Origin: a virus
DNA length: 64,000 nucleotides
IMG/VR virus record: IMGVR_UViG_3300021185_003522
Span: 61,234-125,233 of that record
Direction: 5' to 3' (one strand)
A program made the position numbers and the translations under genes. The notes beneath the pieces were generated by a model that saw only the letters and a program-made list of their open reading frames with translations, was not told where the DNA came from and did no database searches. Positions 3,001 to 21,310 of this stretch are shown here, piece after piece (the stretch's first letter is position 1; the number at the start of each line of letters is the position of its first letter).

Positions 3001-5951
3001 TCTATTGCACGAAAAAATTCGTAGTCTCTACCATTGATAAAATTTGTCATCATGGTAAATGGTGAACTGTGTTGCAGTACCAAATCACCATAAGGCACAA
3101 CGTTTCCAAGATCTCTTACATTATTATTTCCGTGTATCTTTCCACGAAAGTTTTCTAAATTCTCACAAATGCTTTCGTAATGTGTACGCAAAGTACCAAG
3201 TGTAAAACTTGGACTGTTTGCATTCATTGCGTTAGATTCAAGATTACTCGGGATAGTATAAAAAGCAACACTACTTGCGAAATCACTTAATACTTGTACT
3301 TCAACAGTAGCACCAGTCACTGGTTGTGTTGCAGGTTGGCCAACAATGTTTTCATTAAAAGTTACAACAGTCACATTATCGCTATTTGTTGCATATGTAT
3401 AGCTAGTAGGAAGTATAAACTTTCCTTCTACATACACCTTTACAGGAATTTTTGATGCATCATTGATTACTTCTATATCCAAAACCAAAGCAGTACCTTG
3501 ATAGGTAAAACTAAAACTTTGTCTTTGTACACTAGTCTCAAAAGATGTTTGCCATCCAAGAAGTTTATCAAATGTGTCTATACTATTATACTGCCTAACT
3601 GTGCCTGTGTCAATCTTTTTATTTTCACTAACAGTTCCATTGACATACACAAAGGAATCAGTGTACAGGTTATTATCAAATACAATGTCACCAACATTAT
3701 TAATTGTAAGATATTTTAATGGTTGATCAATTACAGTATCAGTTGTACCAGTACCAATTGCATAACTAAAAAGTTTTGAACCTTGGAAAGTAGTACTTGG
3801 ATATACTGTCGTGTCGCTAAAACTATAGCCACTACTATCAAATATATCAAACAGTGGTGGTTGATTCACACTATTTTTTTGCTGTGCAGATTGCCAGGTG
3901 GTTCCATTAAACCAGTAGACTTTTCCTTGTTGCGTATTTCCTGAAGTAACTACCACTGTGGTATTAGTATCTATGTCAGGTGTTGTTAGACTTGCTGGTT
4001 GCAAATCAATAACCTGTGTCGTGCTATCGCCAAAGTTAATAAAACTTACAGTATAGATTTTATTACGTACTTCACTATCTAAATCGTTAGCAAAAATTAC
4101 TCTTGACCCAGAAATAAAATTATACCCATCAACACTGTAACCAATAGTACCATTAATATTTGAAAATGCATCAGTTTCAGTAAAATCAATTATATCAATT
4201 GGTGCAGTAGCAATGGTTCCATAGTTAAAAAGTTTTAAATTTTTACGGAATTCAAGTATTGGACGTTTTGCTCTGTTATCATTGTTGATTACCAATGGAA
4301 TTTGATTATAATTTGCAGTTTGTTCCAATACACCAATATGGAACCATCTGTTTCCCCTTGTCCAAGCATTCTGATCAATACTTGCACGATTAATTGTCAT
4401 ATAATCCTGTGCAGTTGGCGCATTATTAGTAGCGTCAAAGTTTCCTTCATCAAAAGGTTTACTATCATAAGGCACAGTAGTGGACACGGTAAAAGTTTCT
4501 GGCGTAATAAAGTCTATTACTGGTAATAATTCAATTGCAGTTCCAACGCCCTCAATATAGTATTCATTGTTTTCATAACTAGAAGGAACAACAGTGCCTA
4601 TAAATTGTACTTTTAAGCCGTTTGTGAATACAACACCATTTGGTGAAGTATATGATGCTTTACCAATTACATCTTCAATGTTTAAATCTGCTGAATTTGC
4701 CTGTTCAACGAGACGTATGATGCCAAAGTTAGTTTCATCGTTTCCGTCTTGGTAATATAGAATATCAAGGTTTGCGGTTATCAATGGTTGGAGTTTAAAT
4801 TTTCCAGATGCATCCTTATACCATGTTTTTCCAGCATTGTCTGTACCGTATTCAATCAAAGTTTTGTTTAAATTAGCTATACTCTGTACTTTTGTAAGTT
4901 CCATAAAAGGACGAAGAGGATCTGCATAGTTAAAGTTTATTATCCATTGTACTAACTGATTCTCATCTCCAGTTATAGGATCAGTATCACTAAAGACACT
5001 ATCATCAAATCCTTGACTGTCAAAAGGTTCTTCGTTAGCCCAACCTGTAGATTGTCCTCCAACAAAAATTAATGTGCGATTTTGTAAATCAGTGATACCG
5101 TCAATTCCATCAGGATTATCCTCAAGAAATACATCAACGTACTGGTTATTAATTTGATTAAAGTTAAGTGTATTCTCAACTAAATCAGTAGATCCAATAT
5201 CTGCTAGTGTAAAGAAAAAGTTTTGATCAGTTTTACTTGGCACTGTAAATTGAACAGTACCTACATCGTCGCCATTATTAGTTACGCCAAGAACATCTCG
5301 GGAACTCTGATTTGGTTGTTGTGGTAGCGTACCCGATGTGCCAGGCACACTTTGTATAAAATATGGATGCCCGCTTGCGTTTACATTAAATGTATACCCT
5401 CCTTGCCTTACAAGAGTAAGAGTTGGTAATGCACCTGCTTCTCCTGAAAACGTGTATCCATTTTGCGTATAAGCAACATCAAAAATATCTGTTAAGGGAA
5501 CTGCATTAGAAAACACATCAACGCTGTTAGGTCCTTCAGGCACCCAATAATATTGGCTGAAATTTATATATTTGTCGTAATCTACAAAAGGATCAAAACT
5601 ATAATGTTCGCTATCAAATAACCTGTTATCTTTTATTGTGTTTGCACCTTGTAGGTTCAAACTATCAATAATTCCAGGATAGGTTATTGCATCTACGACT
5701 TTACCTGTATCAGGAGATACTTGAACTACACCAGGTTCTAATTGATAATTAGCACGAGTAGCAGTTGGTTCTAAGATATAATTGTCAGTGGCTGTTACGC
5801 CAGGACCAATCTTTCGACCAATATATCCTTCTGTTGGTTTCAATTTAGGATTTTGTGTAAGTTGGTCTAATGTACTACGTAACAACTGCTTGTTTGCAGG
5901 TGTTTGAAAAACTTCAGGTAAAAAATCTTCTGAGCGTATACGCTTCGCCAT
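1..5951 (-). CDS. Giant virion structural protein, C-terminus outside window
   Basis: This is the largest reading frame here. The minus frame starts at an ATG at 5951, one base after the gp6 stop, and is still open at base 1, so at least 1983 codons are present and the C-terminus is missing. I translated the start (MAKRIRSEDFLPEVFQ...), a stretch near 3000 and the last 60 bases, and all are open and protein-like. It lies directly downstream of gp6, the place of T4 gene 7, so a baseplate wedge or other large tail structural role is likely by position. I recognise no domain. It presumably shares the gp6 late transcript, since there is no room for its own promoter. Confidence 0.8.
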   Translation of the reverse strand, partial: MAKRIRSEDFLPEVFQTPANKQLLRSTLDQLTQNPKLKPTEGYIGRKIGPGVTATDNYILEPTATRANYQLEPGVVQVSPDTGKVVDAITYPGIIDSLNLQGANTIKDNRLFDSEHYSFDPFVDYDKYINFSQYYWVPEGPNSVDVFSNAVPLTDIFDVAYTQNGYTFSGEAGALPTLTLVRQGGYTFNVNASGHPYFIQSVPGTSGTLPQQPNQSSRDVLGVTNNGDDVGTVQFTVPSKTDQNFFFTLADIGSTDLVENTLNFNQINNQYVDVFLEDNPDGIDGITDLQNRTLIFVGGQSTGWANEEPFDSQGFDDSVFSDTDPITGDENQLVQWIINFNYADPLRPFMELTKVQSIANLNKTLIEYGTDNAGKTWYKDASGKFKLQPLITANLDILYYQDGNDETNFGIIRLVEQANSADLNIEDVIGKASYTSPNGVVFTNGLKVQFIGTVVPSSYENNEYYIEGVGTAIELLPVIDFITPETFTVSTTVPYDSKPFDEGNFDATNNAPTAQDYMTINRASIDQNAWTRGNRWFHIGVLEQTANYNQIPLVINNDNRAKRPILEFRKNLKLFNYGTIATAPIDIIDFTETDAFSNINGTIGYSVDGYNFISGSRVIFANDLDSEVRNKIYTVSFINFGDSTTQVIDLQPASLTTPDIDTNTTVVVTSGNTQQGKVYWFNGTTWQSAQQKNSVNQPPLFDIFDSSGYSFSDTTVYPSTTFQGSKLFSYAIGTGTTDTVIDQPLKYLTINNVGDIVFDNNLYTDSFVYVNGTVSENKKIDTGTVRQYNSIDTFDKLLGWQTSFETSVQRQSFSFTYQGTALVLDIEVINDASKIPVKVYVEGKFILPTSYTYATNSDNVTVVTFNENIVGQPATQPVTGATVEVQVLSDFASSVAFYTIPSNLESNAMNANSPSFTLGTLRTHYESICENLENFRGKIHGNNNVRDLGNVVPYGDLVLQHSSPFTMMTNFINGRDYEFFRAIEFNAIEYSKTKQKILDYVGSNDWENKTTAQILDETLLAINAGKNDISPFYWTDAIPYGTTFQTTSYTVSPITTEVFDTLFSYDLTTANYKGILVYYTPISTGVQTILTGDGYEYTVATDGPRITINTNRITLADGDIITINEYATTYGSYVPATPSMMGLYGIYRPYEFLDNTYVTPTNVIQGHDGSLTVAFEQGDYRNDVLLEFEKRIYNNIKVSADDRYALPLQAVDVIPGQFRTTDYTLGEVTTILNTSFLTWVGENRVPYKDQTYIADNEFTWNYSQSENKLSEKPLLGFWRGIYFDLYDTDSPHTRPWEMVGLTEEPSWWQTIYGPAPYTSGNTVLWSDMANGIVAYPTGNVTRKEYVRPQLLDALPTDSQGNLLPPMDSIVGSYDRNSFVKSWVAGDMGPTETAWRRSSAYPFAIQRLLALTKPAQYFSLFADRDLYKYNNDFSQYLYNNRFRIDPDTIEIYGNNTIKKSYINFIIDYNRVTGLDSTTLLSDTLSNMDVRLCYRMAAFSDQNYLKIFSEKSSPNSLNSSLLLPDESYELFLYKNPSIAEIQYSAVTVQRVSGGYAVAGYSTAKPYFEILQSANAGTFSTITVAGQTTRIAESFTENVRQVPYGYVFTNASAVVDFLVSYGALLTKKGLTFDTVENEYIINWTQMSQEFLYWVNQSWTEGSIINLNPAANILKLEQPNTVVESLTNENINDIILNQNFLPMTTKDYAVERLGNELKLIGLNNNTFSLLLARFTAYEHIIVFDNVSIFNDLIYQPITGARQNRLLVNGNTVFDWNGTLDAQGFILNQDNIREWVPNQSYTKGQIVLYKNAYWSATTLLAPSGTFVFADWIKSDYSQIQTGLLPNLATKANALRENYDIHTANLESDATLLGLGLIGFRPRQYMQNLNLDDISQAGLYSQFLGTKGTLGAAEQFKSAYLGKEEAEYEIRENWAIQRGIYGANANRSYFELRTDESKLLSNPSTIAVIDTQEVSTANQTVLVDNIWKQ

Positions 5952-5952
5952 A

Positions 5953-8900
5953 CTAGATCACTCCGCTATTTGATGCGGTACGTAGTTGACTACTTGTTAA
6001 TGCATCTATAACTTCTATATCATTAACTGTGGCCGCATTTACAAAAATTTCATTTGATTGTGAACGTATTTCGTACAGATCACCAAACGATTTAAGAGGA
6101 TCAGTTGGTACAAGTACCACTGTGCTTATAATGCTTCCTAGCTGATCATGTAAATATGCACTAAGTTCAGAGAAAAAGAAAGTATCTCCAAAATCCCAAT
6201 TTTCAATTGTAAAGTAGGAATTCATTGCAGACACGACCTGGCTTTTTATCTCGCTTATACTTGCCGTGCTCTGAGGATTCTTCACACATTTTATTGTTGC
6301 TCTTAACTCTTCAGATGCTTTTGTACCAAATAATGGTTTGAATGTCACACTATTAAGAATAATATTATCACTTATCATTTTGTACTTGTTAAGTGTACTA
6401 TATGCAGTAGTAAGTTCGTCAATTGTAGGTTGTGCAGGCTGGACTACAGTTCCGGTACTATCTCTTGCATAGTTTTGATAAGCAATATAGTAGGATTGGG
6501 TTACAAGAAAAATATCAATAATATTTGTTGTTCCTGGATCTATACGTCTGCTTAACGGTGCGTTATGTCGATACTGAAAATATAGTCCTTGTCTGCCAAC
6601 ATATGTTTGGTATCCTACAACTTCAGTAATAGTTCGTACTCCATCATATGCAACTGTTAATTGATAAAATTTCTTATCAGTGTATGCATAAAATACTTGT
6701 TTGTCTGGATATTCACTTTTTACTAATTCAATTGAGTCTTTAGTAGCAAGTGAACCAATTACTACTCCAGCCGCAAGTGGCAAATATCTTTCCAAGTTGT
6801 CAAAGTCAATTGTTTGTTGTAAGTATATTCTTTTTGTATTTGGGTTTACTGTTGGAGCAACCAATGTTTGAAAATAATCTGGATTGTCAGGTATGCCATC
6901 ATTGTCAGAATCTTTATAACTTATTCTTACTTTGAAGTCGTCAATAAAACCATCAGTTTCAACAGGTTGATCAATGATATCTAACACTTCATCGCTGTTA
7001 AGCGTAGAACTTGTATCTGGTTTATTATTAGTTTTAAGTACATTTATAAAATCGTTTATCACTGTGCCTGTTTTTGGATCATATACTTTCTGTGTGCCGT
7101 CATAAAAGAAACGTGTCTCAAGCACACTAGCCCAAAACCGTTGTAAACTACGAGAACTAACTGTGTATGTTACACCATCAGTTTCAAATGCAACCAACCA
7201 TGAATTATCTAAGCCTGTTCCTGTGGTATTCTGTGCATATGCAAGACTAAATGTAGTGGCAGAATTTAAATTAGTTGACGTAATCACATACCACGATCCT
7301 GTTAAATTATCATATCCAATTCCAAAGTTTCTGTATAGCTCAATGTTTTCACGAATTGTTGTTTCAATTGAAGTTGGCAAATTAGTAACGAAGTTTGGAA
7401 TAACCTCAGTTGGAATTGCATTTGTAGGAATAAAATTGTTTAGTGTAACTGGTCCAGTACCGTCAGCGTTGTTTCCAGTTCCAAAGTTTGTACCGTCAAG
7501 TTCTAATGCAGTTACAGTTGCCCATAGTACTGTTTTATCTCCAGGCAACGTTGGTGATCCAACTGCTAGTCTATTTGTGGCAGTAAAATATTGTCCTGCA
7601 GGCGGTGTAAATTTAACTAGTCCACCATTTGCAATATATTGTTTATTATCACTTGCTTGAGGCCCAACCGGTGCTGGCGCATTACTAGCTACAAATCTAA
7701 AAAATCCAGTTGTTTCATTGTTACTGGTTGTGCTCTGACTCCAATTCAAATTCAGTATTGCTAGGTCCGGACGAGTAAAGTTTTCATAATAAAACTCTTG
7801 CATACCTCTACTTGCAAGGACGGGCTCAACTTGATTTACAATCACGTCTGTAATATCATTTTGATCAATATAGGTAAATGTAAAACTTGGCACTGCGGTA
7901 TTTTCATAAATCATACCATCTGATGCAAAAACATTTGTACTTGAATATTTTCCAGTAATATCTACAAGATCCAAGTATCTACTAGTACCAATTGAGCTGC
8001 GATTCAGAGCCTTGGACTTGATTATAGTTGAATAAAGTGTATATGGAAAATTGTTGTAGTCTTCACCGTTGACCATTCTGTCTTGTGTGTAATATCTTGC
8101 AGGAGCACGTTGCTTTATGTCATTGATATTTTCTCTATTGGTGGCATTGCTTATTGGTGTAGTTAATGCACATGTAAGACTAAGTGTTTCGTTTCGTCCT
8201 GATCTACTTACATAACCGATACTAATGGTTACGTTTTGCATTTCGTCTGGGTTGATTATATATGCTAACCCGTTTGATGAACGAACATATGTTCTAAAAT
8301 TACCAACTGGAATAGAACTGAAAACTCCATCTCCAAAGTTTAAGTTAATTTGATCATTGGTTCGTGAACTAATACTATAATACCTACGTTGTTCTGGCGT
8401 TAATTCTTCTACTGCACCAGTATAGATGTTATCAACTTTTGACCATTCGTTTTGTATATTGCCGTCGGCATCTAGTTGATATAACCATGTATCTGTATTA
8501 TTGACTCCTTCAATATTAACATTTACTACTCTGTTAGAAATTCTCTCGCCTAAATTAAAATCTAAGTCTTGCAAACTTCCTTGCTTGAACAAGAAAAAGT
8601 ATCCAGTATTTGCACTAGCATACCCTTGATAGTCGTTACGATAAAGAATATTTAAAGGACCATTTGGTTGTGGTGACGGTTCGTATATAAAATCTTCGTT
8701 TTGAGAGGTTCCACTTACGGCTTCAAACGCCATGCTAGTACCATTTACTGTATTAGTAAACGGTATTACTGGTAAAAACCCTTGTATTAAATTAATTGTG
8801 TATTCATCTGTTTTTACACCAAGAAGTGTTTGTGTATTGCCCGGTACTCCAAACCGTTGACTATTTGTAAGTGTACTGTTGACGATAACTGTAAATTGTT

Positions 8901-9360
8901 CTAACCAGTTTGCGTTTGTTGTATCATTCCAGTTAACTGTAATATTTGAAAGGTTTGCACCAGTAAAATCTACCACACCTTCAGTTGTACTAATACTTTG
9001 TACTTTTAAAAATCCTTCTGCGGCGGTATTTCGTTTTGGTGTGTAACTTACTAGTTCCGCTAATCTGTTGACACTATCTCGTCTTTCAGCAGTGTCTATA
9101 AAATTTTCTCTAGTGTTTAAATCATTTCTGAAACTACCTGCTTGGCCCATAAATGCCATAACATCAAGCAGTGCTATGAATTCACTTGACTCTATATAGT
9201 CGTTGAAACTTTCTGGGTAGTACAAACGAATATAATCAATAAAAGTTTTACGCAGTGTTTCAAAATCGTAACTTTGAAAGTCTGCTTCACGATAGGTTTG
9301 ATAGATTCTTTTCCAATCTTCAACACCAAATATACTAGTTTGTCGTGTAGTTTTAGCCAT
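5953..9360 (-). CDS. gp6: Baseplate wedge protein gp6
   Basis: A protein of 1135 residues placed immediately after gp25, the same order as T4 25-6. T4 gp6 forms the wedge ring that links baseplate sectors and triggers sheath contraction. The N-terminal 100 residues, with the DFESYDFETLRKTFIDYIRLYYPE-type segment and the SSEFIALLDVMAFMGQ segment, are typical of gp6/gpJ-like wedge proteins. The C-terminal 150 residues (ITEV..., NYFTIENWDFGDTFFFSELSAYLHDQ-like) also fit the family. It is much longer than T4 gp6 (660 residues), with the extra length in the middle. The start has an AAGGA ribosome site and a late promoter motif 18 bases upstream. Confidence 0.88.
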   Translation of the reverse strand: MAKTTRQTSIFGVEDWKRIYQTYREADFQSYDFETLRKTFIDYIRLYYPESFNDYIESSEFIALLDVMAFMGQAGSFRNDLNTRENFIDTAERRDSVNRLAELVSYTPKRNTAAEGFLKVQSISTTEGVVDFTGANLSNITVNWNDTTNANWLEQFTVIVNSTLTNSQRFGVPGNTQTLLGVKTDEYTINLIQGFLPVIPFTNTVNGTSMAFEAVSGTSQNEDFIYEPSPQPNGPLNILYRNDYQGYASANTGYFFLFKQGSLQDLDFNLGERISNRVVNVNIEGVNNTDTWLYQLDADGNIQNEWSKVDNIYTGAVEELTPEQRRYYSISSRTNDQINLNFGDGVFSSIPVGNFRTYVRSSNGLAYIINPDEMQNVTISIGYVSRSGRNETLSLTCALTTPISNATNRENINDIKQRAPARYYTQDRMVNGEDYNNFPYTLYSTIIKSKALNRSSIGTSRYLDLVDITGKYSSTNVFASDGMIYENTAVPSFTFTYIDQNDITDVIVNQVEPVLASRGMQEFYYENFTRPDLAILNLNWSQSTTSNNETTGFFRFVASNAPAPVGPQASDNKQYIANGGLVKFTPPAGQYFTATNRLAVGSPTLPGDKTVLWATVTALELDGTNFGTGNNADGTGPVTLNNFIPTNAIPTEVIPNFVTNLPTSIETTIRENIELYRNFGIGYDNLTGSWYVITSTNLNSATTFSLAYAQNTTGTGLDNSWLVAFETDGVTYTVSSRSLQRFWASVLETRFFYDGTQKVYDPKTGTVINDFINVLKTNNKPDTSSTLNSDEVLDIIDQPVETDGFIDDFKVRISYKDSDNDGIPDNPDYFQTLVAPTVNPNTKRIYLQQTIDFDNLERYLPLAAGVVIGSLATKDSIELVKSEYPDKQVFYAYTDKKFYQLTVAYDGVRTITEVVGYQTYVGRQGLYFQYRHNAPLSRRIDPGTTNIIDIFLVTQSYYIAYQNYARDSTGTVVQPAQPTIDELTTAYSTLNKYKMISDNIILNSVTFKPLFGTKASEELRATIKCVKNPQSTASISEIKSQVVSAMNSYFTIENWDFGDTFFFSELSAYLHDQLGSIISTVVLVPTDPLKSFGDLYEIRSQSNEIFVNAATVNDIEVIDALTSSQLRTASNSGVI

Positions 9361-9796: not shown

Positions 9797-9804
9797 TATT
9801 TATG
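9797..9804 (-). promoter_or_regulatory. Late promoter motif before gp25
   Basis: Minus-strand CATAAATA overlapping the end of the gp5-like gene. The expected transcription start, about six bases downstream, falls on the gp25 ATG. Confidence 0.65.
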
Positions 9805-12031
9805 TACTTATTCCAGTGACTTTTTGGCTGGCTATTCCAGACTGAACTGCACTATCAATTGAGTTTCTGATTGTAGTGTTTACCACACCGCCAGTGCCAG
9901 TTGAAAATCCTTGTACGGCATTGCTAAGTTTATCAGAGGCTAAATCAATTGCATATTGTCCACCTCTTACTACTGAATTCATATCTGCACTTGTAATCTT
10001 TGTGCTAAAAGATCCTGCTAGAGTCTGACCAATATCCTCTGCGCCTTGTGTCCACTTTTTCACTGCATCCACACCAAATTTACTAGCACCACTTACCAAT
10101 CCAGCCAACGAAGACTCATTCTCTAAACCAGTTACTATTCCTGCATTTTGTAATTTGCTAAGTCCTTTGTTAAAAAGATCTGTTTTTGTTATATCTTGTA
10201 TAGACTCATTGTTTAAAAAATCACTTACGCCGTTAATACCTTGTGCTCCACTCCACACACTTGAACTGCTTAGAACAGTATTCAAATCAGCAGTTGAATC
10301 CTTAAGAAAAAATTCACTGGTACCTGGCTTTAAAAATCCAGCATCTTCAAGTTCAGGCGCACTAAAACCAAATTTTCCAACGCCTAATGTATTAGATATT
10401 TCATTTGTTCCTTGTGTAACTAATTTACTTGATTGTGCTACCATACCTGTCACTTTTTCAGGTGGTATCTTGCCAACTGAAGTGGTTGAATTTGATTGTG
10501 CTTCGTAGTCACCTGAGTTAATTTTCTTAATGTCTGTAGTCTCTGCCTTTGTTACTGCTTCTTGTGTTTTTTCATCAAGTGGTACATCAGTCGAACTAGT
10601 AGTTAAATTAGTTGTTGTATTAACTCCAGTGCCGCGTTCTGCAAACGGTTCATGTGTTGGTGCCCGTGTTACAATAGTTTCGATACTTGCTGGTTCTGGA
10701 ACCCACCCTACGTTGTTTTCAAATTTTGTATCTGCTAAACGTTTCTTTGGAATTGTTTGAGCTTTTGGCACGTCACTAGCTGACCCACTGTTTAGTTTAA
10801 TACAACCTGCTTCGAGTGTAAGGTTACTGCCAGCACCCCAACTGCCAGTCGTACTTTTAAGCATTAGAGATCCGTCACTTTTGAGTCCAATCATGCTTTT
10901 ACTATATGCCAATAAACTGTTTGTGCCTATCAGTGAAAGGCTTGCACTTTCAAGGGTCATTGCCGCTTTGGAATTCATGTTAATAGTGCCGTTTTCAGCA
11001 TTCATGTTTATACTTCTATCAGCATGCATATTAATCTCTCCAGCACTCCTTATGTTCAGACTGTTTGAAGCGTAAACATCTATTGTACCTTCTTTACCAA
11101 GTTCTACCCAACTTTGTCCATTAGCATGCATTATGTGTATTGTTGATTCTGCAACAGTATCGTTCATCATAATTTGATGTCCAGAACTGGTTCTGATTCT
11201 CACTAGGTTGTCTTCGCCGGCTTGGTTACCGTCATCCATGACAACACTGTGCCCACCTTTACGCCCAATTACTGTCGTTTCGTTTGCTTGTAAAGTACTA
11301 CTAGCAAGTTTTGCCTGTAACTGTGCATCTGTAAGTCCGCCGGAGTATATAGGACGACCTGGTGTGCTGATGCCGAAGCAAGAGCTAGGTGATTCTCTTT
11401 GACTATTAGAACTTATTGGTCCTAAGAGAGGATCTGCTATTACCCCTTGCGAAAGTAGTTGTCCTGCAAGGACACTATGTACTGGTTTCGCTTCTTCAAA
11501 AAATCGAGGATTATCTGTTATAGCAGGATTAGCATTGTTAATTTCTACAACTGGTAACTTAGGTTTGCCTGTATAGTAGGGTGACCCTGAATCATCTACA
11601 TATTTTTTACTACTACCAATAGCAGGAATCATGTGATTTATTCCTGGTTCAATTGGCATACCTATATAGTAACCTTGACTAGGGTCACCATTTGCAAAGA
11701 AACAGATTACCTTAGTACCAACATCAGGTGGAGTACCCCAAAATCCATAACTTTGATTGTTACCAGTAAAGGTGCCAGGTCCAGTTTGGTTTGGTGCACT
11801 CTGTTGTGTGTAGCCGTAAAATGGAGTGATATAACTTACAGTGCGCCAAAGACTACTAACATTTTTGTCTGGACCTGCTAAATCTTCTATGAATACCTCA
11901 AGACGTCCAGCCCGTATTGGATCAATGTTATTCATTACTTCACCAATAAACGGTCCAGTTTCAGCTGGCATACCGCCTTTGTCTAATTTATAATTTCTTG
12001 GTTGTCCTGTGGTTCTTTGAATATTTTGCAT
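9800..12031 (-). CDS. gp5: gp5-like baseplate spike protein without lysozyme domain
   Basis: A 743-residue tail-spike hub protein. Residues ~25-135 read as the gp5/VgrG OB-fold (GPFIGEVMNNIDPIRAGRLEV, then GFWGTPPDVGTKVICFF and GYYIGMP). After a linker, residues ~265-415 give the repetitive needle pattern (VRIRTSSGHQIMMNDT, then alternating INMHADRSINMNAENGTINM strands) expected of the trimeric beta-helix that punctures the outer membrane. The T4 gp5 lysozyme domain is not recognisable between them; a low-complexity linker is there instead. A 300-residue C-terminal extension has no known domain. GAGGAG lies just before the ATG. Confidence 0.85.
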   Translation of the reverse strand: MQNIQRTTGQPRNYKLDKGGMPAETGPFIGEVMNNIDPIRAGRLEVFIEDLAGPDKNVSSLWRTVSYITPFYGYTQQSAPNQTGPGTFTGNNQSYGFWGTPPDVGTKVICFFANGDPSQGYYIGMPIEPGINHMIPAIGSSKKYVDDSGSPYYTGKPKLPVVEINNANPAITDNPRFFEEAKPVHSVLAGQLLSQGVIADPLLGPISSNSQRESPSSCFGISTPGRPIYSGGLTDAQLQAKLASSTLQANETTVIGRKGGHSVVMDDGNQAGEDNLVRIRTSSGHQIMMNDTVAESTIHIMHANGQSWVELGKEGTIDVYASNSLNIRSAGEINMHADRSINMNAENGTINMNSKAAMTLESASLSLIGTNSLLAYSKSMIGLKSDGSLMLKSTTGSWGAGSNLTLEAGCIKLNSGSASDVPKAQTIPKKRLADTKFENNVGWVPEPASIETIVTRAPTHEPFAERGTGVNTTTNLTTSSTDVPLDEKTQEAVTKAETTDIKKINSGDYEAQSNSTTSVGKIPPEKVTGMVAQSSKLVTQGTNEISNTLGVGKFGFSAPELEDAGFLKPGTSEFFLKDSTADLNTVLSSSSVWSGAQGINGVSDFLNNESIQDITKTDLFNKGLSKLQNAGIVTGLENESSLAGLVSGASKFGVDAVKKWTQGAEDIGQTLAGSFSTKITSADMNSVVRGGQYAIDLASDKLSNAVQGFSTGTGGVVNTTIRNSIDSAVQSGIASQKVTGIST

Positions 12032-12041
12032 CTATTCTCCT

Positions 12042-15000
12042 CTATCGAAAAGCTGATGAGTTTGTGCCGCCGCCTTGTCCACCAACTACTTTGGCTCCAT
12101 TTGCTACTGCACGTCGAGACTTTTCGGCTCTTAATCTATTCCTTTTGGCTAACAATGATTCACTAAATTTCAAATCCTTGCCTGCATCATCGCTTACTGT
12201 ATTGCTACCTGGTTTTGGTACTACAGTAGGCAAATGGTTTGCTTTGTTAATTATAGGGTCTACATAGTTAGTACTATTGTTCTGCAAGGTTGCAATTCTT
12301 TTGTTCCGCATAATCGAATCATCGTAATTTTGCGGTGGCACAATTGCACTCTTTTTCGTATTACTTGTATTTGGTTTTGCGCCACTGCTCAACGGAACTC
12401 CTCCAGTAATCACATCTGGTCCTGGTCGCCTGTTGATTCCTTTATTATCTGGTGTTCCCCGCTTGTCTAAGAACTGTCCACTTCCTCTGCTTCCTACAGG
12501 AACATTGCTTTTTCTTACTGCTGATGGAGTTGTTTTTTTAATTGGTGGACTTGCGTGTCCAAATGCTTCTAAGCCAGGGTCTGAAATTTGATTCTTTTTC
12601 TCAGCAAGCTGCTTTGGTGAATTAACAGCGGCATCAAAGGTACGCACAGTACCTTCTAGCTTTTGTGTAAACTTTCCTTCTTTAAAGTAACTTGTTACTT
12701 CTAAACATGTGAACACAATAGCTTCTTGTGCTAGGTTCTTTTCACCGGTTATTCTACTAATCTCGAGGTTATTTTCAAACACTGGAGTAAGTCCTGTGGC
12801 TAGATCGTAATCAGTGACTCTGTTAAATCTTACTTCATAAAGTGTTTCACCAGAATTAGCATTGATACTTCCATCTGGTTCAAATGCTCCAAGATTTGAT
12901 GCATTATAAAAGAGTTCACTTTGTAGTATCCAGTCTGGATCACCAACAATTTCAATTAAACTTTTGGACACATCTGCAGGATCGTACAACCGCGACGCAA
13001 GTTGTGCTGCTGGTCGTGTGCTTTGACCAGCTCCTCCTTGTGTACTAGTACCTACACCGCTTTGAAAAAACTTTTTCTCAACATATCTAGCATCTCCAGT
13101 GGTATCATTGTTCAATCCGTCATTACCAATCGAAGTAATATAATTTGAATTATTTTCAATTTCAAAATTGATAACTTCAGTATTTTGTCCTGTAAACCAA
13201 TATTCGTATAATTTGTGGGCGCCACGATACATTGCCTCTGGAAAGTATGGTGACCTTGGTGTGTTTATTTGGTATCTGCTTATTCTGTAGGTGATACGGT
13301 AAGCTATGTCTTGACGTTTCTCGTCAAACTGTATAGGCTCTGAACGTTGTGTTATGCGATACCATTGCACAGTTTTCACTGGTGGATTTTGAATCTTTGC
13401 GCCAGTGATTTCGTCAAAAGCCACTGTTTGCTGAGCAGTAATATATGTGCTATTTTTCATTACTTGATCAATCAGTTGAACAATTTGTGTACCTGCACTG
13501 ATACTAAAACTTTTTGTTTCAACATCTAGTGCTTGTTTGTCCTGATTAAGTTTCTCGTTTGGATTGGTGGATTTCTGTAGAGGCGCACGTGCTTTATTTA
13601 CTGTGCCTTGTTTTTTCATCTTGGCATCACTAAGACCTGCTACTTCTTCAACTTCAATAATATATTCATCAGGTATACTATATGCACCAGCATCAACGAG
13701 TTGTTTCTGGTGCTGATTTAGAGCCTGGGCTAAACCAGCAGTTACAGTTCTTCCTGCAAGTCCTTGTACCTTCTTACCTGCAGGCGGTGGTGTTCCGTTT
13801 GAAGCTGCAGTAGCTTCTTGCAACTGTGTATCACCGTTTAATAAAGTTTTAATATCTGGAGCATTCAGTTGAAAGTTAAAGGGTATACTGCCTCTCGCAG
13901 TTGAATAACCAATCTGTGTTTGTGGTACAACACCAGACACACTGTAAGTTACTGCTTTATCTGTAAGTTTATAAGTGATATCATTGAACTGAAACGGAAT
14001 AAACTTCTCAACTAAAGCACGCGGATCGCTTGTGGTTTCTCCGTCATTAGCAGAGGCATTGCTAACAAGATTGCCAAATTCATCATATCCATAAAAACGT
14101 ATAACCATTAGAAAGTTTTGTGCGTTAACTTGCGTTTCTTGTCCAGAATGAGCTTTTACTGCGGCAGTTAATCTTGGTAATAAAGTTATGCCTTGAGGCT
14201 CTATGATTTCAAATTTTAAGTCAACTACATTGTGCGGTCCGCCAGTGCCTTGTGAACCAATAACACTATCAAGTTCTAAGTTTTCAATGTAAAAATCAAG
14301 ATCAAAAAATTCATTGCGTTCACCAAATGGAGCTCCGCCGCTTTGCATAATTAGTTGATTGGTTGGCAAGACCTTTTGATCAGATGCTATGAGACTTTTA
14401 TATTCGTCAATATTCATTAAATAGATTGACAAACTATAGGTTTGACTTGCTAGACCGCCTAATCGATTAGGCGTAGCAATAATCGGTTTACTAAACTCGT
14501 CAGCAACAGAAACACGTCCTTCAACATCTTGGCTTGCAGTTCCTTTACTATTTGAAGCTGATATGCCGCTTTGATCGTCGTCTGCAGAAACTATAGTTGA
14601 TGCATTCGCTGCACTATTGATAGACTGATTTTTCCTAACAGGCACAGCTCCGCCGACTGTAGACTGTACACCACTGCCTTTATTATTTCCGACAGATTCA
14701 GAACTACGTAATGTTGTTGTTATAGCATTAGTTGGCTTATCACGACTAACAACTACAGGAACTACTTCGCCGTTTTCAAAAATTTCATTGCCTTGTACCG
14801 GAGATTGTGTTCGTGAAAATTCATTTGCAGATATTTGAGCAATTGCTACTTCTGAACCAGTGGAGATTTTGCCAACGTTTTCTGCGACACTTTGACTATT
14901 TAGACTAGCATAGGCTTGTGTTTGTATAGTTTTTAAATTCCCTGCCATTACAGTAGTTTCTGTAATATTCGACGTAAGTTTAACTTTTGTACTTACATAC

Positions 15001-15221
15001 CCAGGTTTGTTTTTAAAACCTTCGTTCTGCCCATTTAAATTTTGTAAAATACTTCGTGTGGAAGTTACTCTGTTGTTTAAACTATCCCAGGTGTTGTTTA
15101 TCTGATTCCAGTTAGCACCATTTGCTACTGAACTTCCAAGGTCACGAACTAATGGTTTAAGTTTGTTTATTTCAAGTTGTTGACTTAGTCTTGCTGTATT
15201 AAGTAGCTCTGGTGAAGACAT
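12042..15221 (-). CDS. Large baseplate/hub structural protein
   Basis: A 1059-residue protein in the baseplate operon between the gp53-like and gp5-like genes. I do not recognise a named T4 counterpart. Residues 1-240 are low complexity (Ser/Asn/Gln rich). A folded core covers ~250-760 (SLSIYLMNIDEYKSLI, FFDLDFYIENLELDSV, FLMVIRFYGYDEFGN). A basic, proline-rich disordered tail covers ~880-1059. The tail holds DPGLEAFG and VPVGSRGSGQFLD, both echoed in the protein encoded just upstream. Position next to gp5 suggests a hub or distal-tube part (gp27-like place), but this is inference from order only. Confidence 0.7.
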   Translation of the reverse strand: MSSPELLNTARLSQQLEINKLKPLVRDLGSSVANGANWNQINNTWDSLNNRVTSTRSILQNLNGQNEGFKNKPGYVSTKVKLTSNITETTVMAGNLKTIQTQAYASLNSQSVAENVGKISTGSEVAIAQISANEFSRTQSPVQGNEIFENGEVVPVVVSRDKPTNAITTTLRSSESVGNNKGSGVQSTVGGAVPVRKNQSINSAANASTIVSADDDQSGISASNSKGTASQDVEGRVSVADEFSKPIIATPNRLGGLASQTYSLSIYLMNIDEYKSLIASDQKVLPTNQLIMQSGGAPFGERNEFFDLDFYIENLELDSVIGSQGTGGPHNVVDLKFEIIEPQGITLLPRLTAAVKAHSGQETQVNAQNFLMVIRFYGYDEFGNLVSNASANDGETTSDPRALVEKFIPFQFNDITYKLTDKAVTYSVSGVVPQTQIGYSTARGSIPFNFQLNAPDIKTLLNGDTQLQEATAASNGTPPPAGKKVQGLAGRTVTAGLAQALNQHQKQLVDAGAYSIPDEYIIEVEEVAGLSDAKMKKQGTVNKARAPLQKSTNPNEKLNQDKQALDVETKSFSISAGTQIVQLIDQVMKNSTYITAQQTVAFDEITGAKIQNPPVKTVQWYRITQRSEPIQFDEKRQDIAYRITYRISRYQINTPRSPYFPEAMYRGAHKLYEYWFTGQNTEVINFEIENNSNYITSIGNDGLNNDTTGDARYVEKKFFQSGVGTSTQGGAGQSTRPAAQLASRLYDPADVSKSLIEIVGDPDWILQSELFYNASNLGAFEPDGSINANSGETLYEVRFNRVTDYDLATGLTPVFENNLEISRITGEKNLAQEAIVFTCLEVTSYFKEGKFTQKLEGTVRTFDAAVNSPKQLAEKKNQISDPGLEAFGHASPPIKKTTPSAVRKSNVPVGSRGSGQFLDKRGTPDNKGINRRPGPDVITGGVPLSSGAKPNTSNTKKSAIVPPQNYDDSIMRNKRIATLQNNSTNYVDPIINKANHLPTVVPKPGSNTVSDDAGKDLKFSESLLAKRNRLRAEKSRRAVANGAKVVGGQGGGTNSSAFR

Positions 15222-15222
15222 A

Positions 15223-15519
15223 TTAGATACCTAAGACTGTTTTCAATGTTGGTAGCTGCGGCAGATAGATTGTTGTTCCTGTTTGAAAATCAAACAGAGG
15301 ATCCTGAAGTTGATTTGGATTACGTTGTGCAAACACCCACCAAAGATTTGGATCTTCATATAGGTCAAATGCCAATAGGTCTGGACGTAAGTGATAAGTT
15401 TCATTAATCGTCATTGACAGATCATCAATTAGTTTAGGAATTGGCCTGTCAACCATAACACCAAGATACTGCGAATTTATAACCGGCGTATCAAATAGAA
15501 AACTTGACGGAGTATACAT
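15223..15519 (-). CDS. gp53: gp53-like baseplate wedge protein
   Basis: A small 98-residue protein. The motif LYEDPNLWWVFAQRNPN followed by DPLFDFQTGTTIYLP matches the short gp53/LysM-like baseplate family, in which a Tyr-Gly/Asp-(N/D)P-x-hydrophobic-Trp segment precedes a DP...G..I.LP turn. T4 gp53 is about twice as long, so this would be a minimal form. An ATG at 15519 shares its A with the upstream stop (TAATG), which favours this start over an in-frame GTG two codons upstream. It lies between two large baseplate proteins, consistent with a structural part. Confidence 0.6.
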   Translation of the reverse strand: MYTPSSFLFDTPVINSQYLGVMVDRPIPKLIDDLSMTINETYHLRPDLLAFDLYEDPNLWWVFAQRNPNQLQDPLFDFQTGTTIYLPQLPTLKTVLGI

Positions 15520-17735
15520 TACCACATTCCTTTCTTAATTAAGCTACCATTAGCGTAGTCTTTAAGACTAAACTGTTGACTAGCTTGTTGTCTGCTGATT
15601 ACTGGTAACATATTAATAGTCATTGCCATCTTCGTCGGCACATAGGTTGCACCTTTTGATCCTAACTTACCAGGTGTAATCTTTGTTGGTTTTGCTCCAG
15701 GAGCTAGAGTTGGCCCTGGTCCGCCACTTACCGCATTTGTTACTGCGGTTTGCAATCTATTTAATGCACTAAAGTTTCCATTGGATACTGTTGATGCTAA
15801 GGGTTTTGTAAATTGCAATTGGTCGTCTCTGTTGATATGTCTACTTCTTGCACGTATATAGTTTACATCATTGGGTAGGTTGTAGTTAAATTCTGTTACA
15901 ACACAAGGCGCCTCGTTAAATTGATATTCACCTAATCCAGTAAGATATAACAATGGTGGAGGCGACCCTCTTTCTGCATCTTGCCCATAAAACATTTTAC
16001 TTGCACTTTTTAAAAAATGTATAACTGCTAGTAGATATTCTGCTTCAATTGTGTCTTGAGCGGTGAATTCTGCTTGTAGTTGCACAGTCTGTACACTTGA
16101 ATTTTTATAAAAATAATGTTGATAGTTACTGTGTGTTGGCGAATAATTTTGGTATTCAGCTCTGTATTGTACATCAATAGTTGGCGTATATGGAAATATT
16201 ATTCCGTCAGTCACTGCCAGAGGTGCTAGTATACCCGGCTCAGGTGCTTTGTATAGATACGTAGCCTGCGGAGCTAATCGGAGCTTAACACGCCAATCAC
16301 CATCTGCATTTTTAACACCTGATGCTTCACGCATCTCACTAACAGTTTGTTGTTGTTGTGCCTTTTGTTTCAGTGCTTGTGCTTGTATAGCCGCTTGTTG
16401 TGCTTCGGTTATTGCCGCTTGTTCTACTCCGTCAATGCCATCACCTTCTGCGCCGTCGCCAATGTCGGCAACTGGATCGTCTCCAACTAGACTTTCACCA
16501 TCATTGTCTATACGATCTTCTGGTGCTAGTATTGGATCGCCAAATTCATCAAACTGAGCTGCTTCAGGATCTCCAAAGTCATCAACTCCAAAAGGGTTAA
16601 CATCTGCAGGTGCTGTAAGTGGATCTCCAAATTCATCAAATTGTGCCGCTTCTGGATCACCAAAATCATCTACGCCAAATGTGTTTACTTGATTTGGAGT
16701 TGCAAAGTCACTAAAGTCCTGTTCATCTGCAATACCAAAGTCATTGTCACTATATTCATCAAAACTATCAACTTGTGGTTGTGGTTCTACTACATCACCA
16801 AAGGCATCAAACTGTTGGTACTCTTGTACGTTAGCAGGAGGAGGTGGTGTTGGCCCTGGGCCAAATGCATCTAAGCCAGGATCTTCTGTACCAAAGTTGT
16901 TGTTACTGTATGCACTGAAATCGTCTACCTGTGCTGGTGCTGGTATATCACCAAAATCATCTACTGGTGTGACCGGAGGAGAATATTCACTAAAATTATC
17001 TACTTGTGTGATATTTCGACTAGGTCCACTAAAGTCATCTACTTGTGTAACTGGATATCCACTAAAATCGTCAACTGGTGCATCAAAACTTTCAACTGGT
17101 CTTGCTGGCGGTGCTGCCGGAAATGGATCTGGTTGCTCTGCTGGTGCTCTGCCTCTATCATCTAAAAATTCGCCACTGCCTCTACTTCCTACAGGTACGG
17201 TAGCTTGTTCAACACCAGGACGTCTTGTACTAGGTGGAATTGGTGTAACTTCTGTGTAACTGTCACCATAAGCATCAGTAAAATCTACATCATCATCTTG
17301 TGGTTGAACAACTGGTGTTGGTATTGGAGTTGCCTGTCGATAATCCTCACCATATGCGTCTGTAAAATCAACATCTGAATCTTGTGCTTGCACTGGTCTT
17401 GCTGGTGGCGGTGCTGGAAAAGGATTTGGTGCTGGTGCTGGATCACTTCCTCCATTTCCGAATGCTTGACTTGCTATAGTACCACCACCTTGAAATGCAG
17501 TTCCTGAACCAGGAGTGTTACGTGGTGTATCAGTTGATTGTGTGTTTTCTGATGCTCTACTAGTTACTGTACCAAAAGCGGCATTCTTGGCTGGAGTTGC
17601 AGTGGTGTTAATCACATAGTTTGGTACATCTTCAGCAGGTATACCTGCTAGTGCGGCCAACTTATTAAGATCAGCACCAGGAAACTGTCTCTGATATGCT
17701 GACATCAAGGCGGCATCTTTAATGTTATAACCCAT
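15519..17735 (-). CDS. Proline/acid-rich baseplate or tail-tube-associated protein
   Basis: First gene of the leftward baseplate operon, 738 residues. The frame is open to 17819, but the ATG at 17735 has an AGGAG ribosome site and a late promoter motif 18 bases upstream, so I use it (MGYNIKDAALMSAYQRQFPG). Residues ~60-440 are a long disordered acidic/proline linker with repeated VDDFSGY, DVDFTDAYG and FGVDDFGDPEAAQFDEFGDP units. The C-terminal ~270 residues are folded (YLYKAPEPGILAPLAV, FTAQDTIEAEYLLAVIHFLK, FYGQDAERGSPPP), a region I associate with conserved structural proteins of marine T4-like phages. The exact virion position is unknown. Confidence 0.75.
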   Translation of the reverse strand: MGYNIKDAALMSAYQRQFPGADLNKLAALAGIPAEDVPNYVINTTATPAKNAAFGTVTSRASENTQSTDTPRNTPGSGTAFQGGGTIASQAFGNGGSDPAPAPNPFPAPPPARPVQAQDSDVDFTDAYGEDYRQATPIPTPVVQPQDDDVDFTDAYGDSYTEVTPIPPSTRRPGVEQATVPVGSRGSGEFLDDRGRAPAEQPDPFPAAPPARPVESFDAPVDDFSGYPVTQVDDFSGPSRNITQVDNFSEYSPPVTPVDDFGDIPAPAQVDDFSAYSNNNFGTEDPGLDAFGPGPTPPPPANVQEYQQFDAFGDVVEPQPQVDSFDEYSDNDFGIADEQDFSDFATPNQVNTFGVDDFGDPEAAQFDEFGDPLTAPADVNPFGVDDFGDPEAAQFDEFGDPILAPEDRIDNDGESLVGDDPVADIGDGAEGDGIDGVEQAAITEAQQAAIQAQALKQKAQQQQTVSEMREASGVKNADGDWRVKLRLAPQATYLYKAPEPGILAPLAVTDGIIFPYTPTIDVQYRAEYQNYSPTHSNYQHYFYKNSSVQTVQLQAEFTAQDTIEAEYLLAVIHFLKSASKMFYGQDAERGSPPPLLYLTGLGEYQFNEAPCVVTEFNYNLPNDVNYIRARSRHINRDDQLQFTKPLASTVSNGNFSALNRLQTAVTNAVSGGPGPTLAPGAKPTKITPGKLGSKGATYVPTKMAMTINMLPVISRQQASQQFSLKDYANGSLIKKGMW
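16534..16688 (-). repeat. 87-bp in-frame tandem repeat in baseplate gene
   Basis: Two diverged copies start at 16534 and 16621, a period of 87 bases or 29 residues, each encoding FGVDDFGDPEAAQFDEFGDP. The DNA copies differ at many third positions while the protein is unchanged. Confidence 0.85.
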
Positions 17736-18746: not shown

Positions 18747-19760
18747 ATGGGTTTGTTTAAGAAAGCTCTAGTGTTCACAGACATCCACTTTGGCATGAAA
18801 AGCAATAGCATCATGCACAATCAAGACTGTGAAAACTTTGTAGAGTGGGCAGTACAACAGGGCAAGATACACAACTGTGAAACTGCTATATTCATGGGTG
18901 ACTGGCATCATCATAGAGCAAGTTTAAGTTTGCAAACTATGAGTCACAGTTTACGTGCATTAGAAAACCTTTCACGTAGTTTTGATATTACATATTTTAT
19001 AACTGGCAATCATGACTTGTACTACAGAGACAAACGTGACATATACAGTTTTGAATGGGCAAAGCATATACCAAATCTAAAGATATGCAATGACTGGTTT
19101 CAACAAGATGATGTTATACTATGCCCTTGGCTAGTAGGTGACGATCACAAGAAGATTAAAACTGCAAGTGCCCAGTACATGTTTGGCCACTTTGAACTTC
19201 CGCATTTTAAAATGAATGCAATGGTTGAGATGCCTGATCACGGTGAGATCAAATCAGAACACTTCCAACAGTATGGCACAGTGTTTAGTGGACACTTTCA
19301 TTTGCGTCAACAGAAAAACAACATCAACTACATTGGCAATGCATTTCCGCACAACTTTTCAGATGCAGGCGATGATCAACGTGGTTGTATGATACTTGAA
19401 TGGGGCAAAGAGCCAGAGTACATTGCTTGGCCAGATCAACCGTTGTACAAAGTGTTGGACCTTTCGCAGGTAATTGACTATGCAGACACAATACTTAAAC
19501 CAAACATGCATGTTAGAGTAAACTTGGACATAGAAATATCCTACGAAGAGGCAAACTACATCAAAGAACAGTTTGCAACCAAATACAAACTGCGTGAGAT
19601 GGCACTTATACCTAACAAACGCAGTGCATTAGAAGAAGAAATGCAACCAGGCGATATCAAATTTGAAAGTGTTGATCAAATTGTTACAGAACAAATCATA
19701 AACATTGATTCCGAATTCTATGACAACAAACTGTTGTTGGAAATTTACCGGAGTTTATAA
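18747..19760 (+). CDS. gp47: Recombination endonuclease subunit gp47 (Mre11-like)
   Basis: A 337-residue metallophosphoesterase, the nuclease half of the gp46/gp47 complex that resects DNA ends for recombination-dependent replication. The metal-binding motifs are all present: TDIHFG (D12, H14), GDWHHH, TGNHDLYY, and the paired GHFELPHF and GHFHL near the end of the catalytic domain. Length matches T4 gp47 (339). Its stop overlaps the ATG of the radical-SAM gene (TAATG), so the two are probably translationally coupled. In T4 genes 46 and 47 are neighbours with small genes between; here a large enzyme gene separates them. Confidence 0.94.
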   Translation: MGLFKKALVFTDIHFGMKSNSIMHNQDCENFVEWAVQQGKIHNCETAIFMGDWHHHRASLSLQTMSHSLRALENLSRSFDITYFITGNHDLYYRDKRDIYSFEWAKHIPNLKICNDWFQQDDVILCPWLVGDDHKKIKTASAQYMFGHFELPHFKMNAMVEMPDHGEIKSEHFQQYGTVFSGHFHLRQQKNNINYIGNAFPHNFSDAGDDQRGCMILEWGKEPEYIAWPDQPLYKVLDLSQVIDYADTILKPNMHVRVNLDIEISYEEANYIKEQFATKYKLREMALIPNKRSALEEEMQPGDIKFESVDQIVTEQIINIDSEFYDNKLLLEIYRSL

Positions 19761-21310
19761 TGGATCTGTTATCTCATGTTGACAAGAACATAAACGTAGT
19801 TGGTACCGTTGAATTTGATTCTGATCCACAACAACTTAAACAACAATTGCTTGCACTACGAAAAGACATGTTTGAACCTAACGAACGAATTATAATTATA
19901 CAACGTTCTGTTGATAATTATCCTTTTATTGATGCATATGGATCAAAACTAATTGAATTACAAAAAATAGTTAACCAAGTTGATATTGGAAATTGTTTTA
20001 TTCTGATACTCACACACAATCCTAATATACAAACCGAAATAGCAGAAGTGAACACAGTATACAGTTCTGATACAACATTATTTGAAAGTTGTGTTTATCC
20101 TGGAAAATATATTGTCACAGTGCCTCAGTACAAAAATACTGCGTGTAAAAAACTATGGAATCACCTATACATTGGAACTGACAGTAATGTCCTTCCATGT
20201 TGTGTAGCAGACCATAGATATCCTTTAGGAAATATCAACAATCAATCTATTGATAGCATACTTGATTCAGATCATGCTCAAAAAATACGACAATGGATGA
20301 TGGAAGGCTATCGTACAAAATCTTGTAGTTCTTGCTATAAGAATGAAGACAACAATATAAAAAGTTTAAGAACTGTGTTTACACCTACTTCGGCTAGACG
20401 CAACCAAATAACATATTTAGATGTTAGACTCAATAATATTTGCAACTTCAAGTGTAGGATGTGTAGTGAATACTTTAGTAGTAGTATTCAACAAGAAACT
20501 GTTGACATATTTGGCAAAAATGCAGTACTAGGTTATGAAAAAATAAGTCTTGATTCGGATAATCGTCAAACTAGACAAAGCAACTTGATAAAATTGCTAC
20601 CGTATGTCACTGCTGATCTTGAAAAAATATATTTTGCTGGTGGAGAACCATTGATTACAGAAGAACACTATGGTATACTTGATCGATTGATTGAGGTCAA
20701 TAACTTTGATATAAAAATGTCATACAATACTAATTTAAGTAGACTTAACTATAAAACAAATAATATATTTGACTACTGGAAACAGTTTTCTAATATATCT
20801 GTTGGCGCAAGTATTGATGCAAGCGATCAAGTAGCAGAATACATGCGTCACGGAACAGTATGGCAAGATATAATCAATAACATCAATGCTATTAAGATTA
20901 ATACTCCACATGTTAATCTGTTTATTTCTTCGACAGTAAGTTGGCCTACACTTGAAAATCTAATTGAATTACAAACAGATTGGATACGCACTGGATTGTT
21001 TACACGTGATCAGTTGACAATGCATGCTCTGGTTGAACCTGGTTATCTAAGTCTAACAACCTTACCAGATTCCTACAAACAATCTATGACCATAAAAATT
21101 AACAAGCATATTGACCACATAGGACAATGTGAACTTGCACAAAGCTGGGAAGAACTGCGAAATTTTATGAATGCAACTAACACAAAGTACGAGTTGGCTG
21201 AGTTTACAAAACGTACTCTAACACTCGATAAACATAGAAAAGAATCCTTTGCCAGTGTCTTTCCGCAGTTTACGGATTTATTTTTGGTTGCAAATAGCTC
21301 ACAAACGTAG
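19760..21310 (+). CDS. Radical SAM enzyme with N-terminal twitch-like domain
   Basis: A 516-residue radical S-adenosylmethionine enzyme. The 4Fe-4S-binding CX3CX2C motif is C228, C232, C235 (CNFKCRMC), and the SAM-contacting GGE is at 294-296 (FAGGEP). Upstream, C129, C147, C148, C189 and C192 (VLPCCVADH, CSSCYKNE) look like a SPASM/twitch auxiliary-cluster domain placed before rather than after the core, as in the N-terminal-twitch radical SAM family. Substrate unknown: twitch enzymes modify peptides, carbohydrates or small molecules. It is coupled to gp47 by a TAATG overlap, and the gp46 promoter lies inside its 3' end. Two PLP enzymes follow gp46, so a joint pathway is possible but unproven. 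Confidence 0.88.
   Translation: MDLLSHVDKNINVVGTVEFDSDPQQLKQQLLALRKDMFEPNERIIIIQRSVDNYPFIDAYGSKLIELQKIVNQVDIGNCFILILTHNPNIQTEIAEVNTVYSSDTTLFESCVYPGKYIVTVPQYKNTACKKLWNHLYIGTDSNVLPCCVADHRYPLGNINNQSIDSILDSDHAQKIRQWMMEGYRTKSCSSCYKNEDNNIKSLRTVFTPTSARRNQITYLDVRLNNICNFKCRMCSEYFSSSIQQETVDIFGKNAVLGYEKISLDSDNRQTRQSNLIKLLPYVTADLEKIYFAGGEPLITEEHYGILDRLIEVNNFDIKMSYNTNLSRLNYKTNNIFDYWKQFSNISVGASIDASDQVAEYMRHGTVWQDIINNINAIKINTPHVNLFISSTVSWPTLENLIELQTDWIRTGLFTRDQLTMHALVEPGYLSLTTLPDSYKQSMTIKINKHIDHIGQCELAQSWEELRNFMNATNTKYELAEFTKRTLTLDKHRKESFASVFPQFTDLFLVANSSQT

Follow-up and report, generated by a model that had tools for sequence, protein, structure and literature searches.

The central tail hub of contractile phages may carry a docking tag, a short linear motif of the form PGL[D/E]AFGGxGxx[V/I], whose core (PGL[DE]AFG, motif 2) lies in the disordered parts of two neighbouring baseplate proteins of an uncultured T4-like giant phage, the gp27-like hub and the gp48/gp54-like tube initiator. 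A second motif shared by the same proteins (VPVGSRGSGxFLDxRG, motif 1) would be a module of the hub tail that was transferred to the initiator. This explanation as a whole is the one towards which we lean, with some reserve. The presence and conservation of the motifs, the predicted disorder around them, the identity of the hub (from fold and family matches) and the recurrence of motif 2 in unrelated proteins were computed directly, as described below.

The window, that is, the whole stretch of DNA that was analysed, comprises 64 kb of the 125-kb virus record IMGVR_UViG_3300021185_003522 (record positions 61,234-125,233) and holds a T4-like tail module on its minus strand (Table 1). The initiator starts at M29 (MGYNIKD...) of a 766-aa open frame; since its relatives begin at this residue, the length of 738 aa given by an earlier sequence-only reading is correct. 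A minus-strand open frame of 4522 residues (record positions 53616-67184, to window position 5951) adjoins the gp6-like gene and crosses the start of the window. Farther along, a radical-SAM-like gene (phrog_14086) at window positions 19760-21310 on the plus strand lies between SbcD-like and SbcC-like genes.

Table 1. Tail-module genes, protein regions and motifs, in window positions
Feature	Position	Strand	Basis or remark
gp6-like gene	5953..9360	-	
gp5-like hub/spike protein, without motif	9800..12031	-	phrog_13211; no hub motif on scan
gp27-like baseplate hub protein, 1059 aa, with disordered C-terminal tail	12042..15221	-	Translation, Foldseek, phrog_11190
Disordered C-terminal hub tail (residues 877-1059), net positive in window clade	12045..12593	-	pLDDT, charge table
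Basic helix near hub C-terminus (residues 1023-1040)	12102..12155	-	AlphaFold2 model
Near-invariant hub-tail element PKPGSNTVSDDAG	12180..12218	-	Clade hub tails; related (S/D)DDAG endings in far relatives
Motif 1 in hub tail, VPVGSRGSGQFLDKRG (residues 907-922)	12456..12503	-	
Motif 2 in hub tail, DPGLEAFG (residues 881-888)	12558..12581	-	To I at +12: 12540-12581, DPGLEAFGHASPPI
gp53-like wedge protein, separating the two motif genes	15223..15525	-	phrog_7145
gp48/gp54-like tube-initiator protein, 738 aa	15519..17735	-	phrog_12050, Asteriusvirus gp48 homologue, Foldseek
Folded tube-initiator domain (residues 507-766 of 766-aa frame)	15522..16301	-	AlphaFold2 model, Foldseek
Acidic disordered segment (residues 71-470 of 766-aa frame)	16410..17609	-	pLDDT, charge
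Array of 13 [FVLI][DNE]xF[GSA] repeats in initiator	16539..17075	-	Shuffle mean 0.33, maximum 3
Motif 2 in initiator, DPGLDAFG	16860..16883	-	
Degenerate motif-2 copy VDDFSGPSRNI in initiator	17010..17042	-	Pattern scan of clade proteins
Motif 1 in initiator, VPVGSRGSGEFLDDRG, lineage-restricted	17151..17198	-	
Small N-terminal helical domain (residues 33-68 of 766-aa frame)	17616..17723	-	AlphaFold2 model

Predicted fold and family matches identify the 1059-aa protein as a gp27-like central hub. Foldseek matched its single-chain AlphaFold2 model to T4 gp27, Mu gp44 and hubs of contractile injection systems (E about 1e-6 to 1e-5, probability 1.00), the TM score over the whole model being low owing to disorder, and a gp5-type spike gene lies directly downstream in the window and in most relatives. 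Within residues 877-1021 the pLDDT mostly stays under 50, and the added disordered region was taken to include the C-terminal end as well. For the 738-aa protein, assignment as a gp48/gp54-like tube initiator is modestly supported by the predicted fold: its best Foldseek matches are the T4 baseplate-tail tube chain 5iv5_BE and baseplate chains of injection systems (best E 1.6e-3, a weak match from a model of low quality outside its domains, mean pLDDT 51), and its homologue in fEgEco12 is annotated as gp48. Most of residues 71-470 (766-aa numbering) have pLDDT below 50. This segment is net negative in 96 of 96 distinct relatives, despite varying in sequence and in length (about 50 to 970 residues). 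Pairing of such an acidic segment with a basic hub tail was ruled out as a family-wide rule by the hub charges, with no correlation: 44 hub tails are positive and 60 negative overall, and only the window clade has hub tails of consistently positive charge.

The sequence-only reading had located both motifs in disordered segments of the two proteins, whose folded parts it described as unlike. Both pairs were found, the coordinates of motif 2 being exact and those of motif 1 within three bases (12456-12503 and 17151-17198, where 12459-12505 and 17152-17198 had been given). All sites have low pLDDT (about 30-50), disorder having been predicted for the hub and initiator of the window phage. The folded parts are indeed unlike in sequence (hhalign probability 0.04%, E 0.9), and BLASTP links the proteins through the motifs alone, returning motif 1 (E 1e-6) and a non-significant 7-residue piece of motif 2; full-length homology was thus ruled out at the sequence level. 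Both gp27 hubs and gp48/54 initiators use tail-tube-like folds, and a remote structural kinship between them is possible; it is the added disordered parts, not these folds, that hold the motifs.

The sharing of motifs between hub and initiator is well beyond chance. When the two disordered parts were shuffled 2000 times under a first-order Markov model, no shuffle gave an 8-of-8 match and 7 gave a 7-of-8 match; in 500 Markov shuffles no 15-mer had more than 9 matches, compared with 13 observed. Recent copying of DNA was rejected as the whole explanation, since the codon identities are not simply those of a fresh copy. For motif 1, 6 of 13 codons are identical between the copies (5.0 expected). 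For motif 2 the figures are 5 of 6 in the window and 3 of 7 in L003 and L004 (about 3 expected). In most clade genomes the codons of the paired motifs are roughly as dissimilar as synonymous codons picked at random, those of motif 2 being somewhat more alike in the window phage, L079 and L085.

The proposed search of related phages was made on IMG/VR, which supplied about 20 contigs from the clade of the window and many more distant ones; the contigs are fragments, and absence from one carries little weight. Motif 2 is widespread in the clade, in hub and initiator alike. Both proteins carry it in 7 of the 12 clade phages with both genes complete (the window phage, L003, L004, L014, L022, L079 and L085), the strict form being confined to the hub in L006, confined to the initiator in L017 and present in neither in L021, L080 and L109, a co-occurrence that is non-significant alone and not independent of phylogeny. 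In a 328-kb relative the only two exact matches to motif 2 fall in the hub and initiator genes. Far relatives of the two protein families have no motif 2 at all and, since several clade members also do without the strict form, the motif appears to be dispensable. Nor did far relatives show any stretch common to hub tail and initiator segment above shuffles, and a general rule that the two share a stretch was not seen there. Motif 1 is general in clade hub tails, with drift. The initiators with motif 1 are limited to those of the window phage, the near-identical L005, L003 and L282; a database scan for the exact form of the motif returned no proteins beyond the hub and initiator families.

The initiator segment also holds degenerate copies of motif 2, described by patterns that were picked after inspecting the sequences: the repeat array of Table 1 and a copy of the form VDDF[GS]G....[IV], present in 12 of 14 clade proteins scanned (two of which are fragments) and in none of the out-group proteins. 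In the hub tail of L016, EEEDFSDLDG, which is close to another initiator repeat, stands at the place of EEPGLDAFGG in others. Further elements were noted in hub tails. An (S/D)DDAG element near the hub C-terminus (window positions 12180-12218, and L089, L090, L116, L119, L145 and others) extends across much of the family, wider than either motif. In L021, L080, L100, L104 and L109 the motif region is replaced by YDDA(V/I)QRRARG, a second copy-like stretch that resembles the downstream element NYDDAIMRNKRI, and another clade of the hub family (L058, L075, L057, L073, L068 and L065) has a conserved tail element, PTSGGQxVG or close to it.

A scan of viral contigs for an acidic-type residue followed by PGLDAFG returned the clade and, in addition, proteins unrelated to hub or initiator, and revealed motif 2 as part of the longer motif PGLDAFGGxGxx[VI] (contained, for example, in the 20-residue peptide PGLDAFGGAGPDV). 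Of this longer form, the window hub copy no longer has the GGxG part (FGHASPPI), whose place is taken by PGP in initiator copies. PGLDAFGGxG occurs in 51 viral stretches compared with 3 for a single permuted control pattern of equal degeneracy, all three from one protein type. At position +12, the third residue after GxG and outside the search pattern, 27 of the 30 distinct viral 13-mers have V or I, but only 3 of the 18 found in bacterial genomes (p = 5e-7, for sequences that are not all independent, several coming from one clade). This V/I is kept while the flanks vary between carrier classes; within one clade, hub flanks are also partly conserved.

Family searches place most carriers among the tail-hub proteins, in several classes unrelated to one another. 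They comprise gp48-type tail-tube caps (L276, the L285 group and the L290 group), a phrog_12050 initiator (L259), gp5-type spikes (the L225 group, L261 with four copies, L293, and L256 with Phage_lysozyme2) and gp27-type hubs (L298, and L294 fused to a transglycosylase-like domain), together with an SLT/tape-like protein of transglycosylase/tape-measure type (L286), a tail-lysin-like protein (L220), two proteins with the peptidoglycan-binding PG_binding_1 domain (L235 and L264) and a DUF4815 protein (L287); a portal-protein carrier (L284) is probably due to chance. Where other hub genes are visible (L259, L249, L272, L298 and L294), one hub protein has the motif and the others are without it, and most other carrier contigs outside the window clade have one match each. 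No match to the motif was found in Pfam or the PDB, nor by tblastn against cultured phages, where the BLAST low-complexity filter is a possible cause. Clustering of the motif-bearing loci for a common partner gene gave no family present in all, some loci sharing general tail genes. A literature search on the motif returned nothing relevant, which does not by itself prove novelty.

That shared linear motifs dock the same partner was the central proposal of the sequence-only reading, to be abandoned if the motifs were absent from related phages or made trivial by homology of the full proteins. Neither applies to motif 2, whose two copies are carried by relatives in proteins without sequence homology over their full length; for motif 1 the case is weaker. 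We infer docking for motif 2 because a conserved core in disorder is accompanied by degenerate repeats and recurs in unrelated proteins of one structural neighbourhood, and the presence of the longer form in unrelated tail-hub proteins is what a common-partner hypothesis predicts. The tag would sit on the flexible tail of any hub component that has one, be it the gp48/54 initiator, the gp27 hub, the gp5 spike or a tail-borne cell-wall enzyme, and would most likely bind a shared partner on the axis of tube and hub while the tail assembles or punctures. That partner could be the tape measure, a further protein of the hub, an assembly factor or a component of the host envelope. In the window phage, the tag on two stacked neighbours, together with the many degenerate DxFG repeats on the initiator, could make the contact multivalent. 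The narrower claim that PGLDAFGGxGxx[V/I] is an undescribed hub motif placed on non-homologous tail-tip proteins of distant T4-like phages and answering to one conserved tail partner strikes us as evenly balanced between right and wrong. Motif 1 would be an old hub-tail module, copied or moved into the initiator in few lineages, and may be only a local module, docking or not.

Alternatively, the shared stretches could be disordered, repeat-rich linkers whose modules spread between neighbouring genes and phages by small duplications and recombination, with no specific partner. The initiator segment is swapped wholesale among close relatives, motif 1 is placed differently in the initiators of L282 and the window phage, Asteriusvirus lacks both hub tail and initiator segment, and the lack of a common tail segment in far relatives points the same way; some carriers could have gained the segment by recombination rather than selection. 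As a full account we nevertheless think linker shuffling unlikely, given that an ungapped 13-residue pattern, with a V/I that was not searched for, persists with different codons in several unrelated classes, and that nearly all carriers are tail-hub or wall-active proteins.

Two further possibilities keep a function for the motif and differ in what it meets. It could bind a periplasmic, wall or membrane component once the hub reaches the envelope, which would agree with the peptidoglycan-binding or -cleaving domains of several carriers (PG_binding_1, Phage_lysozyme2, SLT-like) and with the SLT domain that substitutes for the initiator segment in L156 and L160; since most carriers are without a wall domain and the motif also occurs close to the N-terminal end of gp48-type caps, whose place in T4 is above the hub, we hold such host contact to be rather improbable. 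The other possibility is a maturation site, cut in the hub by a phage or host protease. T4 gp5 is cut between domains, and in L256 the motif lies in the linker from the OB domain to the lysozyme domain. With four repeats in L261, a position near the very N-terminus in L276 and a conserved pattern whose length and spaced V/I would be unusual for a cut site, cleavage appears the most doubtful proposal of all.

As an observation in its own right, the domain that replaces the disordered segment in these two initiator relatives (L156:1625-3217 and L160:6019-7611) is an SLT lytic transglycosylase domain (PF01464, E 3e-18), which suggests that the cell wall or the tube lumen lies within reach of the initiator segment. 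Should the docking reading of motif 2 be true, the tag could move from gp48 to gp27 and on to gp5 or a wall enzyme with its function kept, and interaction modules may pass from one hub protein to another. Maps and annotation of phage structural proteins usually omit their disordered tails, and a motif kept in unrelated hub proteins would point to a contact that structures have missed. It may also mark fold-less tail-tip proteins, including injected or wall-cutting ones.

The window proteins resemble the T4 baseplate hub in that they match gp48/54-, gp53-, gp27- and gp5-type components by family and predicted fold, and differ from it by their long disordered tails, in which motifs are shared. 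Among cultured phages, the closest relatives of the initiator are in Asteriusvirus-type jumbo phages (121Q and fEgEco12, 28-30% identity), and the annotated order in the E. coli jumbo phage fEgEco12, gp48 - gp53 - structural protein - gp5, is that of the window; however, the two Asteriusvirus homologues read, of initiator and hub (243 and 751 aa), have neither disordered tails nor motif. Docking by short linear motifs is exemplified by the DxF/DPF motifs of eukaryotic endocytosis and by the acidic-Phe tail of bacterial SSB. Although the sequence resemblance of the phage motif to these is limited to D and F, it has in common with them a short conserved core in disorder, repeated degenerate copies and unrelated carriers.
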